In this document: positions 2,156 through 26,348 of the stretch, piece after piece
How the letters are laid out: every line of letters begins with the position of its first letter
How positions within the stretch are numbered: position 1 is the first letter of the stretch
Virus record (IMG/VR): IMGVR_UViG_3300023223_000955
Coordinates: 1-26,348 of that record
From: a virus
Reading direction: 5' to 3' (one strand)
Length of the DNA: 26,348 nucleotides
Position numbers and translations under genes: made by a program
The notes under the pieces: generated by a model
The model's input: only the letters and a program-made list of their open reading frames with translations
The model's database searches: none
Told to the model about the DNA's origin: nothing

Positions 2156-5100
2156 ATGACTCTTGCAACTGTTGAGGTTCCGTCCGGTGATCTCATGTTC
2201 AGGAAGATCTATGATCCGACTGCCATCGTTGGCGATGCCTTTTCCATGGATAACATGGTCGAAACGGCTGGCCTTAAAATATTGACTTCGGCTGAACGCG
2301 CCGACATAGCAGCCAATACTGTCGATAGACACGTTCAAGATAGCGATTTATTCCTCGACTTTGGCAACGCTAATCAAGTAAGCGCGGCGGAATTGCGTGT
2401 GCATGTTGATGACAGCTCGCTACATTTTACAGAAGGATCGATAAGTCACTTAAATATTCAAGACATCGGCACAAACTCTCACGTCGATATCGACGCGCAT
2501 ATTGTAGACGTTACACTTCACAGAATTATTAACGATGCGGGAACTTCAACTATTGAGCTGTATAGTGCTAGTAAAATAGCTGCTGATATTGCGGCAGTTG
2601 CCAACAACGCTGATATGAAAGATGGCGTAAGAACGACGGCAACATCGAATATTACGCTCAGCGGCAATCAAACTATTAACGGGTATCTGACTATCGACGG
2701 CGATAGGGTGGGTGTCGTGGGTCAAACTGATCCGACAGAAAATGGTATATACATTGCGGATTCAGGGGCATGGTCACGCTCTACCGACATGGACGCTGAT
2801 TCCGAATTAACTAATGGTGCCCGATGGGCTGTCGGTAATACCTCATCAACTAAAAATGGATTTTCATATATTTGTACTACGCCCGACCCTATAACCATCG
2901 GCGTTACAGCTACCACATGGACAGAAATTAAACGCATTGAATTCGGTGTTATTTCAGGAACGGCCACAGAGGGCAACGATCCACGCGTCCCTTCTCAAGA
3001 CGAAAACGACGCATTAGTCGGCACCGGGACGCCATCAAGTGCAAATGTATTTGTGACGAATGATGATGGAAGGCTCCACAGCTCGACAAGCACGCTGTCT
3101 GAGGGATCGAATCTTTATTATACAGATGTACGTGTTTCGGCTAACAGCGATGTGACAGCAAACACTACCCACAGAACCAGCACCGGAAACGATCACGGTT
3201 TTATAGATCAAGATGTCACAATTTTGGCCAGACCGCAACACGCGGGTATGACATTGGGAACATCCGCCGTACAGGGTGTTCTTCATGTTGCGGGCACCGG
3301 CCCCGCTATTGCATTTGTTTCAAAATTTGGGAATGACAGCCTGCCCTCTGCCATCATTATGCGAAAAGCCCGTGGAACAGAAGGAACCCCATTAGCGATA
3401 CTCTTAAATGATAATATAATGAGTGTTACATCGAGTGGTTATGATGGCACGGCATTTGACACGACGACACGATTTCGGATCAATGCTTCTGAAAATTGGT
3501 CTGTAGGCAATCACGGATCAGAAATACAAATTTTTACGACGCCAAACGGAACAGACACGCCGCAAGTGTCGGCCACATTTGGAAACGATGGCATACTTAG
3601 CACTGTAGAAAGAATATTTGCCGAAGGCCGCGAAGTAACTATGAATGCTGACGGGTTTACCCCGATTCATTTAGTCACAGATTTTCCAACACCATCAGGC
3701 GGCGTTATAACATTATTGGCTAATAACGAAGATAGAATTAAAGGATTAGGATTAACCCACTCTGACAGATTTGCCATACCAGATTCAGGCACCAATAACT
3801 TAAAAGCCGAAGCGTTTAATATCCACACTTTAACTTATACGGGCTCAGATACTTATTTTACGGGTGGAAGCGTTGGATTTTTTCAATTTTTTCTATTAAC
3901 AATGTTTGGTAACACGTTGCCATTTACACAGGGGTCCGCAACACTCTTCGACATAATAGGTGACCCCGCATTGCCAGTAAAGCAAGTAAGCTTCGACCAA
4001 TCAAGGGCGGACAACTTTGCATCTCTCGGAACACTCAACGACATTAGACTATTTATAAATAGTACCGCGTTATTAAACAACGGCGGATTAACTTTAATCA
4101 ATAGTAACGATCTCAGAGTAAACGAATTGATCATGTTTAACTTTGTCGAAAATACTAATGATGTGTTTTTTACAATAGATGGAGATCAAGACTTAACAGG
4201 TAAAATAACCGGGTTAACAGCCACAACATTTTCAAGTGAATCAGTTGTAGATATACGTCCAAATATTGGCGACAATTCATCTTTTGAATTAGAAGGAAAT
4301 ACTTTTTTGGGCACCGGATCAGTTTTTAAATCTGGCGTCACTGGAAATATTACAGCTATTGCTGATGCTTCTATAGGCGCAACTTCAATATCAGCCGTAG
4401 TAGATTCAGGCGGTGTGGCAAGATTTCCTTTTACGGGACCAACTGTTTTTCAGTTTCAAAAAGTAACCATATCAGGTTATACAACTAGCCCAACGTATAA
4501 CGGTACTTTTATAATCACGAACACAGATGGCACATCATTTTTTGAAATCTCTAAAATTGCCTTTGATACCGCTGAAACTGGTGGGTCTTTTACCTCTGAT
4601 TCAATCACAGTAACATCAACAGTTCATGCCCGATCTGACGGCGAAGGTTTGTCCATAAGGGATTCAGTTAACCATAATATAGGATCATACGTTTACAACG
4701 CACTAGCGAATACATTTCAAGTTAACAACGATTTTACAGCCACGGAAACAGCCACTTGGGATACAGGAAGTCTTACCCAAGAAGATAAACAAATCATATC
4801 AACAGGTAATGCAGGGTTAAAAGACAGTAAAACCATTGGCTCTTTTCAATTTAATGAAAATGGTACTGTCTCTTCAATAAGTGATGGAGCTTATGGGGAG
4901 ATGACATTTTCAGTAGGCTCTAATTTTAAACTAGGAATTAATGCTCAGTTATTCACATTGGTTGACCCCCTAAATGGCACTATTAGATATGACGGCGCTA
5001 TAGAATTTGACACAACTTATGATGCAATTTTTCATACCTCACTATCTCCTACTGAGGCTGATTATAGAGTTTCTGTAGCTGTAAATGATACTGATCCCGA

Positions 5101-5281
5101 CTATAACGTGGATGATTCTGATATTGGCTACATGGTTTTGTCGTTAAAAGATAAGGGCGATTCAGTTCATATAGAAATTCCAATAGTACTACAACCAGGA
5201 GACACTGTTAGACCGTCGATTGCTGGTCAGGGAACCAGCGTAAACTTAATTTTGGCACACGGTCAAGGCAGCGCGAAATGA
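2156..5281 (+). CDS. Tail fibre / receptor-binding protein (1041 aa)
   Basis: A long, Thr/Ser/Asn/Gly-rich, cysteine-poor protein typical of trimeric phage fibres. Residues about 180-212 carry the motif DRVGVVGQTDPTENGIYIAD then GAWSRSTDMD, a repeat unit known from many tail fibres (usual form RVLVKDQTD..ENGIYVV..GAW.RATD). Heptad-like and short beta repeats fill the middle. The last 140 residues (from GSFQFNENGTVSS, with LFTLVDPLNGTIRYDG and VLQPGDTVRPSI) look like a C1q/TNF-type jelly-roll head, a plausible receptor-binding tip. It starts directly after the previous TAA with no gap. Host recognition is inferred from the family. Confidence 0.85.
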   Translation: MTLATVEVPSGDLMFRKIYDPTAIVGDAFSMDNMVETAGLKILTSAERADIAANTVDRHVQDSDLFLDFGNANQVSAAELRVHVDDSSLHFTEGSISHLNIQDIGTNSHVDIDAHIVDVTLHRIINDAGTSTIELYSASKIAADIAAVANNADMKDGVRTTATSNITLSGNQTINGYLTIDGDRVGVVGQTDPTENGIYIADSGAWSRSTDMDADSELTNGARWAVGNTSSTKNGFSYICTTPDPITIGVTATTWTEIKRIEFGVISGTATEGNDPRVPSQDENDALVGTGTPSSANVFVTNDDGRLHSSTSTLSEGSNLYYTDVRVSANSDVTANTTHRTSTGNDHGFIDQDVTILARPQHAGMTLGTSAVQGVLHVAGTGPAIAFVSKFGNDSLPSAIIMRKARGTEGTPLAILLNDNIMSVTSSGYDGTAFDTTTRFRINASENWSVGNHGSEIQIFTTPNGTDTPQVSATFGNDGILSTVERIFAEGREVTMNADGFTPIHLVTDFPTPSGGVITLLANNEDRIKGLGLTHSDRFAIPDSGTNNLKAEAFNIHTLTYTGSDTYFTGGSVGFFQFFLLTMFGNTLPFTQGSATLFDIIGDPALPVKQVSFDQSRADNFASLGTLNDIRLFINSTALLNNGGLTLINSNDLRVNELIMFNFVENTNDVFFTIDGDQDLTGKITGLTATTFSSESVVDIRPNIGDNSSFELEGNTFLGTGSVFKSGVTGNITAIADASIGATSISAVVDSGGVARFPFTGPTVFQFQKVTISGYTTSPTYNGTFIITNTDGTSFFEISKIAFDTAETGGSFTSDSITVTSTVHARSDGEGLSIRDSVNHNIGSYVYNALANTFQVNNDFTATETATWDTGSLTQEDKQIISTGNAGLKDSKTIGSFQFNENGTVSSISDGAYGEMTFSVGSNFKLGINAQLFTLVDPLNGTIRYDGAIEFDTTYDAIFHTSLSPTEADYRVSVAVNDTDPDYNVDDSDIGYMVLSLKDKGDSVHIEIPIVLQPGDTVRPSIAGQGTSVNLILAHGQGSAK

Positions 5282-19688: not shown

Positions 19689-21113
19689 ATGAAGTTTTTT
19701 AGATTTGGAAACAAACAAGAAATAGTGACAGATGATAAAAATAACATCATCGAAGGCGCTGGATCCGCACAACCCCGGCCAAAATCCGTAAGAAGATTAT
19801 CAGAATCCATATTTACCCAAACAACTGACGTTGATGAGGGAACGGAATTCAGTGATATCTTTTTCAAGCAATTGGGGGGTACAACCGATATTGATCTGCC
19901 CCAACAAACACTGAGAAAAGCCCAAAGATTATCCGTTCTTTTATTCAGAAAAAATGTCAGGGCATGGAGTGGAACGGAAATCCTCAAAGATTTTGCGTTG
20001 GGTGATGGGATCAAATTCAAGGCATCTGATGCGAAGGTTCAGGAGATTTTGGACAAGCATTGGGAGATCAATGAATGGGATGACAAAATTGAAGAACGCA
20101 TGAGAGCCCTTTCATTGTTCGGCGAACAGACATATCCCGTATTTGTCAACGAAGAAACGGGAATGGTCAAACTTTCAACAATATCACCGTTAAAAATTAA
20201 AAACGTTTTAAGAGATCCAAAAAATGCTGAAAATGTTCAGTTTGTTGTTACTGAATTACGAAAGGCCCGTCGGCTAAAAATCATCAACATAAATGATGAT
20301 GGTGAACTGGTTGGCGAAACCTTCTATTTTGCTGTTAATCGAATAAGTGGAGGAACTCGAGGCGTTCCAGACATGCTACCGGCCGTTGATTGGCTTGAAG
20401 GTCTTGATGGAATGTTGTTTGCGCTCATGGAACGAAGTTCTTTGGCCCAGGACATCGTTTTTGATCTCACTTATGAGGGTGCCAATGATTCGGAATGCCG
20501 GAAAATGGCATTAGAATTTATTCAAAGCTTGAAAGAGGGCGGAGCATATGCCCACAATGAAAGAGTCAAACTTGAGATTATGGCCCCCGAGTTGGCCGCA
20601 TCTGATGCCGAAACTGTGATTTCAATATTGCTCCGCCAAATTCAATCGGGGATGAGATTGTGCGGCTTATTTTTCGGAGATGCCGAAGATCTCACCAAAG
20701 GGAGTGCAAGCGAACTCAGCATGCCGGTGGCCAAGGCCATTAAAGCAAGACAAAATTTTTGGAAGAGAATTATCACCAAAATATTCAAGTTTCAGATCCA
20801 AAAATCAAAAGAGGCTGGAAAATTGGATGGCGTTACGGATTTTAATTTTAAAATCTCAATGGATCCAATACTTTTGAGGGATATCAAAACCATGACGACA
20901 GCTTTGATTGATCTCAGTACAACTTTGACCGATGCAGTTGCGGAAAATTATGTTTCAAACAAAGAAGCTTCTGAACTTTACAGAAGCGCATTGGAACAGC
21001 TTTTTGGAGGTCTTATGGATGATTTCGATCCTGAAGATCTGCAAGATATTGAAGCTCTTAAAAAGAGATTTGGCAAAAAAGATGAAGATGATGAGAATGA
21101 CAAAAAGGAATAG
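19689..21113 (+). CDS. Portal protein (474 aa)
   Basis: Forms the dodecameric portal through which DNA is packaged. It follows TerL by three bases. KAQRLSVLLFRKNVRAWSGT, WDDKIEERMRALSLFGEQTY, GVPDMLPAVDWLEGLDGMLF and LRQIQSGMRLCGLFFGDAED follow the portal stem/wing/clip layout, and the C-terminal tail is strongly acidic (DDENDKKE). The strand GETFYFAVNR before RGVPDMLP is typical of portals of Siphovirus-like phages. Assigned from motifs plus synteny (TerL-portal-Mu F). Confidence 0.9.
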   Translation: MKFFRFGNKQEIVTDDKNNIIEGAGSAQPRPKSVRRLSESIFTQTTDVDEGTEFSDIFFKQLGGTTDIDLPQQTLRKAQRLSVLLFRKNVRAWSGTEILKDFALGDGIKFKASDAKVQEILDKHWEINEWDDKIEERMRALSLFGEQTYPVFVNEETGMVKLSTISPLKIKNVLRDPKNAENVQFVVTELRKARRLKIININDDGELVGETFYFAVNRISGGTRGVPDMLPAVDWLEGLDGMLFALMERSSLAQDIVFDLTYEGANDSECRKMALEFIQSLKEGGAYAHNERVKLEIMAPELAASDAETVISILLRQIQSGMRLCGLFFGDAEDLTKGSASELSMPVAKAIKARQNFWKRIITKIFKFQIQKSKEAGKLDGVTDFNFKISMDPILLRDIKTMTTALIDLSTTLTDAVAENYVSNKEASELYRSALEQLFGGLMDDFDPEDLQDIEALKKRFGKKDEDDENDKKE

Positions 21114-23567: not shown

Positions 23568-23651
23568 TTGCCAAAATTTTAAACGGCTAAGAAAAAAGAA
23601 CAGATTGTTCATCTAATAACTAATGTTATTTTGTGGCAATCTTGTTTTTTT
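23568..23651 (+). terminator. Terminator-like hairpin before the capsid gene
   Basis: TTGCCAAAAT (23568-23577) pairs with ATTTTGTGGCAA (23628-23639) with a two-base bulge, and a T7 run follows at 23645-23651. An inner AATAAC-TAAT-GTTATT hairpin (23615-23630) is perfect. Long loop makes it a moderate candidate. Confidence 0.45.
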
Positions 23652-23652
23652 A

Positions 23653-23688: not shown

Positions 23689-26202
23689 ATGAAAAGATTC
23701 TCAGAAAAAAGCAATGTCTTATTTCTCAATAATGTCGATGGTAAAACTGGAAAAGAATGGGATGTTGTTCTCATCGAAGCCGGTTGGTCTTTAAATGAAA
23801 AATTCTATTCACGGGAACTTTTAGAAAAATCAGTTGGTCTTTTTGAAGGTGTGAAATGTTGCGCTTTCTTGGAAGGCGACGATTTCCATCATCGTGACGA
23901 AAGAGATGCCCAAAGACGACCTTCAGGATCTGCAAAAAATACAGTCGGTTGGTTTGAAAATGTTAAATTCGGCGAATTTGATAAACCTGATGGTTCAAAA
24001 GGCGTTGGAATTCTTGCAAGATTTAAAATCTTAGAAGGCCAGGATTGGTTGAGCAAGGGAATGCGAGATGCTTTTGGCAGTGGCAAAACCGATCTGCTTG
24101 GTTTTTCTATCGATGCCCATGGAGAACTTCACCATGGATTTCAGGATGGTAAAGAAGGCGGGATTGTTGAATCAATCACTCAGGTCGATTCAACTGATGT
24201 TGTGACAGATCCAGCCGCCGGCGGAAAATTTATCCGCATTGCTGCAAGTCAAGACAACAAGGATAAAAAAGGATTTTCCATGAAAAAGATTAAAGACTTT
24301 GCTGAAAAGCATGGAATCAAACAAAAAGATGGAGAATCTGACGATGATTTTACATCCAGAGTTCTTGAATCAAAACTTATCGAAGCCGAAAACACTCTGG
24401 GTAATATGTTAAGAAAAGCCATGGAGGCCAAAGGCCTGTCAACGGCTGATCTTGGAAAAGCTGCCGGAATCGATGCCGGTACAGTAGCACAAATTTTGAG
24501 TGGAAGCATAAAAAGACCGCCTGATGCAAGATTAAAGGGATTTGCCCGGGTTACAGGTCTTTCATTCGAACAGCTTTTGAATGCAATCCCTTCAGACATG
24601 AGAGAATCAATCGATGGCGCGTACATCAGTGAACTAGAAACGGAGTTGGTTATGAAAACCGAAAAAGACATCAAAGAAGCTCAAGACAAACTTGCTGAAG
24701 ATCAGAAAAAGTTTCAGGAAGAACAAAAGGCTTCACGAATCAAAGAAAGCCAGCTCTTAGTGAAAGAAGCGCTGATCGGATCAGATCTCCCCGAACAGGC
24801 CCAAAAGAAAATCACTGAAAAGTTTGATGGTCAAGAAGAAGTGACCAAAGAACACATCGAAGAGGCCATTAAAGAAGAAAAAGCCTATATTGCTTCCTTC
24901 AAAGAGTCTACCGGAGACATTGAAAATCTCGGTGATGCCCATGATGACGATGATGATGCTCTTAAAAAAGCCAAAGTCGGAAAAGGTCTTCAGGAGAAGT
25001 TCGCCAAGGCATGGGATGGCTTCTATGAAATGGAAGATGTGGATGGCGTTCCAAAATTTTCAAGTCTGAATGAGGCTTGGAGGGCTTATAACCAAAATAA
25101 CCACAAGGCCCATGGCAGTCGTGAAATGGTTGCCCACCATATTTTTGAATCAATGGCCAGGGCTTTCCCCGGTAAAATTGTTTATGATTTTGGTGATCCT
25201 TACGAAAGACATGAGCGAAAACTTAAAGAAAATTGGGGGAAAATCACATCAGAGACTTTGCGTGAGGCATCGACCACAAGTGATTTCTCTGTTGGTTTTG
25301 GTCAGGCTATGTTCCGAAGATTGCAAAAGGAATATTCTCAGGATCCCCGCAATGATTGGCGCAAAGTTGTGTCCAGCATTGAAAACCTTCAAGATGCAAC
25401 CAATACATTTTCAGTTGTTAGAACTGGTGAGACTAAAGAATTGCCAATTGTTGCAGAAAATGGGGATTATCAGGAATTACATCCTACCCGCGCTGAAGAA
25501 GTCGAAGTTATCACCCCTGAAAAGCGTGGTGGCTTGGAGATCGTTAGTTGGGAAACTGTTTTGGCTGACCGCATTGGAATCATCAGAAAGATTCCTCGTA
25601 ATTTGGCCCGGGCTTCAAACTTGACCATTCACAAAAGTGTTTGGAACGAAATCGAATCAAACCCAACAATGCAAGACAGTAAAACCCTTTTCCATGCGGA
25701 TCACAACAATATCATTTCCGGTGATCCTGTAATTTCTTATGCCAATGCCGTAGTCGGTATTACAGCGCTGAGAAATCAAACGGCTCTTGAATCACTTGAA
25801 AAACTTGGTTTGATGCCTAAATTCTTGATGACTGCGGTTGAACAAGAGGCTGTGGCCGAAGAAATCATTGAATCTCTGGCGAAAGCAACCAGTGCTGAAG
25901 ATGCCACAGTGAAAAACGTTCTGAAGTCCAAATTTGCTATGGAAGCACTCGGAACCATTGGCCTTGGTGTAACTGCCGGAACCACAAAGTTCTGGTATAT
26001 CGCAGCAAGTCCAAAAGATGCTGATACCATTGCCGTTGGATTTTTGGGTGGTCGTGACAGACCTGACATATTCGTTCAGGGAATCGACACTCCAAATTCA
26101 GGATCAATGTTTGATGCTGATAAGATCACTTACAAAGTGCGCCTTGTTCATGGTGCAAGAGTTGTTGATCACCGTTGGATTCAGCGTTCAGCAAACACCT
26201 AA
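23689..26202 (+). CDS. Prohead protease-HTH-scaffold-major capsid polyprotein (837 aa)
   Basis: Four segments are visible. Residues 20-190: prohead protease (WDVVLIEAGWSLNEKFYSRE, HHRDERDAQ with H67/H68, and LLGFSIDAHG with S140 as a possible nucleophile). Residues 237-299: an Xre-like HTH (LRKAMEAKGLSTADLGKAAG, GTVAQILSGSIKRPP). Residues 310-440: charged coiled-coil scaffold with DDDDD at 419-423. Residues 450-837: HK97-like, Mu-T-type capsid (TSDFSVGFGQAMFRRL, FSVVRTGETKELPI, KTLFHADHNNI, VRLVHGARVVDHRW). One open frame with no stop or shift. Protease cleavage would separate the parts. ATG 24280 and 24652, both with ribosome-binding sites, could start shorter products. Confidence 0.85.
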   Translation: MKRFSEKSNVLFLNNVDGKTGKEWDVVLIEAGWSLNEKFYSRELLEKSVGLFEGVKCCAFLEGDDFHHRDERDAQRRPSGSAKNTVGWFENVKFGEFDKPDGSKGVGILARFKILEGQDWLSKGMRDAFGSGKTDLLGFSIDAHGELHHGFQDGKEGGIVESITQVDSTDVVTDPAAGGKFIRIAASQDNKDKKGFSMKKIKDFAEKHGIKQKDGESDDDFTSRVLESKLIEAENTLGNMLRKAMEAKGLSTADLGKAAGIDAGTVAQILSGSIKRPPDARLKGFARVTGLSFEQLLNAIPSDMRESIDGAYISELETELVMKTEKDIKEAQDKLAEDQKKFQEEQKASRIKESQLLVKEALIGSDLPEQAQKKITEKFDGQEEVTKEHIEEAIKEEKAYIASFKESTGDIENLGDAHDDDDDALKKAKVGKGLQEKFAKAWDGFYEMEDVDGVPKFSSLNEAWRAYNQNNHKAHGSREMVAHHIFESMARAFPGKIVYDFGDPYERHERKLKENWGKITSETLREASTTSDFSVGFGQAMFRRLQKEYSQDPRNDWRKVVSSIENLQDATNTFSVVRTGETKELPIVAENGDYQELHPTRAEEVEVITPEKRGGLEIVSWETVLADRIGIIRKIPRNLARASNLTIHKSVWNEIESNPTMQDSKTLFHADHNNIISGDPVISYANAVVGITALRNQTALESLEKLGLMPKFLMTAVEQEAVAEEIIESLAKATSAEDATVKNVLKSKFAMEALGTIGLGVTAGTTKFWYIAASPKDADTIAVGFLGGRDRPDIFVQGIDTPNSGSMFDADKITYKVRLVHGARVVDHRWIQRSANT

Positions 26203-26251: not shown

Positions 26252-26299
26252 ATGAAAAGTAATAAAAAAGAAGACCTTTTCCGACTTTGGCTTTTTTAA
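26252..26299 (+). pseudogene. Truncated start of the next head gene, broken by a chimeric junction
   Basis: ATG 26252 follows GGAAGGA and starts MKSNKK, which looks like a genuine gene start. From 26270 the DNA becomes the reverse complement of 24991-24913, so the codons after MKSNKK (EDLFRLWLF and stop) are artificial. The true gene is not in the window. Confidence 0.6.
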
Positions 26300-26348
26300 G
26301 AGCATCATCATCGTCATCATGGGCATCACCGAGATTTTCAATGTCTCC
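26270..26348 (-). repeat. 79-bp inverted copy of 24913-24991
   Basis: The last 79 bases are the exact reverse complement of 24913-24991, inside the poly-Asp linker of the capsid polyprotein. Identity ends sharply at 26269/26270. Most likely an amplification or assembly chimera at a contig end. Confidence 0.9.

Follow-up and report, generated by a model that had tools for sequence, protein, structure and literature searches.

Gene architecture and genomic setting

The gene at 23689–26202 raises the question of how a helix-turn-helix (HTH) domain of the Xre type came to lie inside a phage head polyprotein and what it could do there. The original prediction placed an intact HTH at residues 237–299, between protease and scaffold, and proposed that it would be freed at maturation and could then bind DNA or the packaging complex or regulate late genes. 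The window, i.e., the whole stretch of DNA analysed, spans an entire IMG/VR record (26348 bases), which is classed as linear and is probably a fragment. The reading frame of 837 aa is uninterrupted from the ATG at 23689 to the TAA at 26202, and its features are collected in Table 1.

Table 1. Features of the head polyprotein gene and of the region upstream of it (window coordinates).
Feature	Position	Strand	Basis
Terminator-like stem-loop (stem 23602–23642) and T run	23598–23652	+	Conserved; includes palindrome 23598–23610
Polyprotein gene protease-HTH-scaffold-capsid	23689–26202	+	837 aa; open frame, Pfam/PHROG domains, full-length homologues L003, L004, L054, L055
Protease-like domain (residues 1–197)	23689–24279	+	PHROG 15531; His68, Ser140, Asp170
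Internal ATG M198, candidate start of HTH-scaffold-capsid chain	24280–24282	+	Met 5/5, SD 5/5; AAGGA ~24269–24273
Xre/lambda-repressor-type HTH domain (residues 237–299)	24397–24585	+	Pfam HTH_31, AlphaFold2, fold matches, dN/dS
Internal ATG M322, candidate start of HTH-free scaffold-capsid chain	24652–24654	+	Met 5/5, SD 5/5; GGAG 24642–24645
Putative helical scaffold region (residues 322–524; long helix 315–362)	24652–25260	+	AlphaFold2 secondary structure, position between protease/HTH and capsid
Major capsid domain (residues 525–837)	25261–26199	+	Pfam PF25209; partial NF045541/NF045540 matches

A hit to PHROG 15531, 'head maturation protease' (E 9.8e-6), covers residues 17–192, and three candidate catalytic residues, His68, Ser140 and Asp170, are unchanged in all eight aligned sequences. 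The Pfam search, S78 included, gave no match of its own for this N-terminal part. Over the C-terminal half the hit is to PHROG 4523, 'major head and protease protein' (E 3.6e-41), and residues 525–832 match Phage_capsid_4 (PF25209, E 2.7e-23), the C-terminal capsid domain expected of the fusion family. A scaffold role is assigned provisionally to residues 322–524. Since the preceding genes encode a terminase (18249–19685), a portal (19689–21113) and a MuF-like protein according to Pfam and PHROGs, the setting is the head module of a tailed phage. The AlphaFold model of the full-length protein (pLDDT 46.5) could be relied on in its protease and HTH parts only and was too poor for the capsid; in a fold search with this model the best 50 matches listed all fell on the HTH and none on the protease.

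The last 79 bases of the window (26270–26348) are an exact reverse complement of 24913–24991, joined inside the next gene, which runs on normally in the relatives. The contig ends here in a fold-back chimera; the inverted copy is located 3' of the polyprotein gene, which is unaffected.

Identity and fold of the HTH domain

The Pfam model HTH_31 matches residues 237–292 with 34.4 bits (cut-off 27; E 2.7e-8), and HTH_26 (32.6 bits, cut-off 22) and HTH_3 (29.4 bits, cut-off 23) also score above their cut-offs. AlphaFold2 was run on residues 196–349 with five sequences and gave five helices (approximately 236–248, 252–259, 263–271, 279–289 and 293–298) with a pLDDT of ~90 across the domain. The model superposes on P22 c2, 434 Cro, SinR and PlcR in VIA-align with Z ~10 and rmsd 1.3–2.3, and the Foldseek and VIA-align matches include the DNA-binding Xre proteins P22 c2, 434 Cro, the 434 repressor and SinR. 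The same searches also returned HppE, HEPD and cyanase, non-regulatory proteins with Xre-like domains. Curated models and the five-helix fold thus both place the domain among the Xre HTHs. The observation behind the original prediction is right in its coordinates, in the intactness of the domain and in placing it after the protease and before the scaffold; as far as domain architecture is concerned, the surprise that it expressed is warranted.

Distribution and origin of the insertion

Four further IMG/VR contigs (L003, L004, L054 and L055) encode a protein of 828–838 aa that is 68–71% identical overall, and all four carry the HTH at the identical place. As the same domain at the same place is shared by five independently assembled contigs, chance and an assembly join are excluded as its source. 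No additional members of this clade came up when several other queries were used in further scans, and scans of viral contigs with the HTH only recovered the same clade alone.

More distant homologues differ. The whole stretch between protease and scaffold (residues 198–321) is absent in L005, L037 and L053, which are actinobacterial homologues plus a related contig at ~28% identity, and in L051, the Microcystis phage Mae-JY22. A Pfam scan of 35 more distant protease/capsid fusions gave no match to an HTH model, and one scan of genome contigs yielded only two actinobacterial homologues, both without the HTH. The domain order that the original prediction suggested looking for in related phages is therefore seen in all four close relatives and is missing in the distant homologues compared. 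This distribution indicates a lineage-specific insertion, and the lineage, a small family of uncultured phages, has an HTH-bearing variant of a known protease-scaffold-capsid fusion type. In our literature search, whose coverage was incomplete, no capsid polyprotein with an Xre HTH was described in the papers listed.

In tblastn of the HTH stretch against phage records there was no match at E 0.01, and the best match had E 0.1 when the threshold was relaxed to 10; the many hits to Flavobacterium portal genes (E 2) were treated as chance. A stand-alone Xre-like ORF of 70 aa lies upstream of the terminase gene (17014–17226; HTH_31 E 1.9e-5, slightly below the cut-off) and has relatives of 49–57% identity in three of the four related records. 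It was rejected as the donor, being only 26–28% identical to the inserted domain.

Mosaicism and selection

The HTH occurs in two types that are ~50% identical to each other, type A in the window, L054 and L055 (89–97% amino acid identity) and type B in L003 and L004 (85%). The capsid part of the window protein is closer to L003/L004 (75–84%) than to L054/L055 (67–68%). HTH and capsid part thus have different nearest relatives, a case of mosaicism inside one gene.

When the type A copies were compared in pairs, the HTH had a dN/dS of 0.02–0.05 and protease and capsid one of 0.14–0.19, with synonymous sites near saturation in most pairs and the exact ratios accordingly rough. By this measure, the HTH is under strong purifying selection, and no other segment of the protein is as constrained among the window, L054 and L055.

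Candidate internal starts flanking the HTH

Four internal Met columns are invariant in the five sequences, and only two of them, M198 and M322, are preceded by Shine-Dalgarno-like (SD) sites. They flank the HTH, and both begin ATGAAA. The SD duplex energy in the five sequences is −5.3 to −8.4 kcal/mol for M198 and −5.4 to −6.1 kcal/mol for M322, and the annotated start M1 has no SD in any of them (−1.5 to +0.8). When 815 codon positions were ranked by their worst energy among the five sequences, M198 was at rank 41 and M322 at rank 39 (~top 5%). The SD before M198 is retained although the linker residues that it encodes vary between sequences. At the level of signals, both positions have the form of nested genes, i.e., in-frame internal starts with an SD-like site at the scaffold boundary. 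Single sites of this strength are common, as in-frame internal ATGs of the window genes equal M198 in 14 of 64 cases and M322 in 7 of 64; the weight therefore rests on the invariance of Met and on two of four such columns having a site.

The 27 other protease-capsid fusion genes, drawn from L005–L053, offer a comparison. In 8 of them, the strongest SD-preceded internal Met lies 145–205 aa before the capsid (2.1 expected, permutation p 0.0004), and the mean SD energy is −4.8 within this band and −2.6 elsewhere; M322 is 203 aa before the capsid domain. The enrichment is suggestive, since the band was picked after a first look and some sequences are related. It suggests that internal scaffold starts may be common in protease-capsid fusions.

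Since conserved SD-preceded starts flank the HTH, no cleavage would be needed to obtain chains that carry the domain and chains that lack it, and the nested starts probably give capsid chains of both kinds. The better-supported anatomy is that of an HTH cassette bounded by two internal starts, and the domain is most likely a minor accessory of the scaffold.

Upstream region and possible DNA contacts

The 121 nt before the head gene hold a conserved terminator-like stem-loop, which follows the preceding gene and has z of −4 to −7 in all five sequences, and three of its pairs have changed on both sides. An interrupted palindrome, GAAC-N5-GTTC (23598–23610), overlaps the left arm of the stem-loop, lies 91–92 nt from the start in each of the five and could be an operator. 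A second exact copy, GAACAGATTGTTC, is found at L080:12063-12075 (G001, the phage of L003), on the other strand and in an intergenic position with similar flanks.

In the 434 repressor, Q28, Q29 and Q33 read bases, and K40 and R41 contact phosphates. Aligned to it, the K40-R41-P42 loop corresponds to K275-R276-P277, which is kept in all five proteins, Q17 corresponds to T252, and Q28 and Q29 to A/K263 and G264; at the position of Q33, type A has Q268 and type B has L. From this alignment, the domain appears to keep the backbone contacts of 434 more than its base contacts. DNA binding by the HTH is possible, and the residues of the recognition helix do not argue strongly for a specific reading of DNA.

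Proposed role and alternative explanations

What is seen directly is the domain, its position, its conservation and the conserved start signals. From these, we infer start use, stoichiometry, a docking role and removal of the HTH, and the account that joins them is our preferred one, held tentatively as a whole. In one small phage lineage, an Xre-type HTH would have been inserted into the fusion gene at the point where protease and scaffold meet. Translation from M1, which has no SD, would give few full-length chains bearing the protease, that from M198 HTH-scaffold-capsid chains and that from M322 scaffold-capsid chains lacking the HTH, so that the HTH would accompany the scaffold as an accessory in sub-stoichiometric amounts. 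In prohead assembly, it may dock to or pair with a partner, which could be DNA, portal/terminase or another chain, and it would be removed together with the scaffold at maturation.

The idea of the original prediction, extended by a version with autoregulation, makes the domain a DNA-binding regulator that acts, as a free HTH-scaffold-capsid chain or as a proteolytic fragment, on an operator of the head operon or of late genes. We consider it rather unlikely. The closest folds are DNA-binding repressors, residues 236–301 are net positive (9 K/R against 5 D/E) inside an otherwise acidic protein, and K275 and R276, at the phosphate-contacting positions of 434, are invariant. The palindrome, too, is constant ahead of the gene, and elsewhere in the sequence read only the one intergenic copy in G001 was found. 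However, the base readers Q28 and Q29 are replaced by A/K and G, Q33 is retained in type A only, and the palindrome overlaps a terminator-like hairpin. It is also identical beside types A and B despite their differing recognition helices, an argument against its being read by the variable helix, and for this reason an operator read by the HTH is placed here among the alternatives. A special form, in which the unassembled chain is its own repressor, binding the upstream palindrome and stopping head synthesis until assembly or proteolysis relieves it, appears highly doubtful; if true, it would couple expression of the gene to the pool of unassembled head protein.

The domain could also be a purely structural module of the Xre fold that has lost DNA binding and pairs chains in the scaffold. 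The enzymes HppE, HEPD and cyanase, non-regulators returned by the same fold searches, are consistent with this, as are the weakly kept base-contact positions and the precedent of a coat-binding scaffold HTH in P22, although that is of a different, two-helix kind (PMC9965877, PMC10275583). Against it, the invariant basic loop KRPP and the very strong constraint would be expected at least equally for nucleic-acid contact; we regard a purely structural role as unlikely. Still less credible is a chance fusion, in which a small HTH gene with its own start at M198 was captured and has no role in assembly. M198 with its SD resembles a gene start, the whole 198–321 stretch is missing in distant homologues, and the two diverged HTH types have other nearest relatives than the flanks, but a passenger is hard to reconcile with the lowest dN/dS in the protein and with retention of the HTH in five of five members at 68–71% overall identity. 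The scaffold accessory between two starts remains our preferred reading.

Comparison with known systems

In the Pseudomonas phage MD8, protease, scaffold and major capsid are encoded by one gene (PMC8508860). The present gene resembles the MD8/F10-like fusions (NF045540, NF045541) in using a single gene for three functions and in its homologous capsid part: MD8 and F10 were among the homology hits, and the partial match to NF045541 has E 7.1e-41. The scores remain far under the whole-protein cut-offs of the two NCBIfam models (140.5 against 525 bits and 126.4 against 475 bits). Those fusions have a ClpP-like protease and no HTH, whereas a PHROG 15531-like protease and an Xre HTH are present here.

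Internal starts have precedents in the nested protease/scaffold genes C and Nu3 of lambda (Shaw and Murialdo, as cited in PMC8508860) and in Mu, with an in-frame scaffold start within the protease gene, as also proposed for Mu-like phages (PMC4378225). In both, an in-frame internal start yields scaffold without protease, for which the present gene has candidate starts only. Their capsid is a separate gene, while here it is part of the same chain and two candidate starts flank the HTH. The P22 scaffolding protein likewise contains a motif named HTH; it is a C-terminal, U-shaped, coat-binding helical hairpin, unlike the five-helix Xre domain described here (PMC9965877). The 434 and P22 c2 repressors of the Xre family share the five-helix fold (rmsd 1.6–2.3), and the sequence aligns to the 434 repressor and a 434 variant. 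These are stand-alone regulators, whereas the present domain lies inside a structural polyprotein and lacks most of the base-reading residues of 434.

An Xre domain in a capsid precursor would connect a regulator fold with head assembly. Single-gene fusions also face a problem of stoichiometry, as few proteases are needed for hundreds of capsid subunits. Internal starts at the scaffold boundary, conserved here and enriched in other fusions, would be a simple answer for the whole group.

Two other regions of the window were recorded. An ORF of 1041 aa without a Pfam match occupies 2156–5281, and in the neighbouring ORFs at 15873–16457 and 16454–17017 Pfam gave a weak match to an AP2 domain and one that is MmcB-like.
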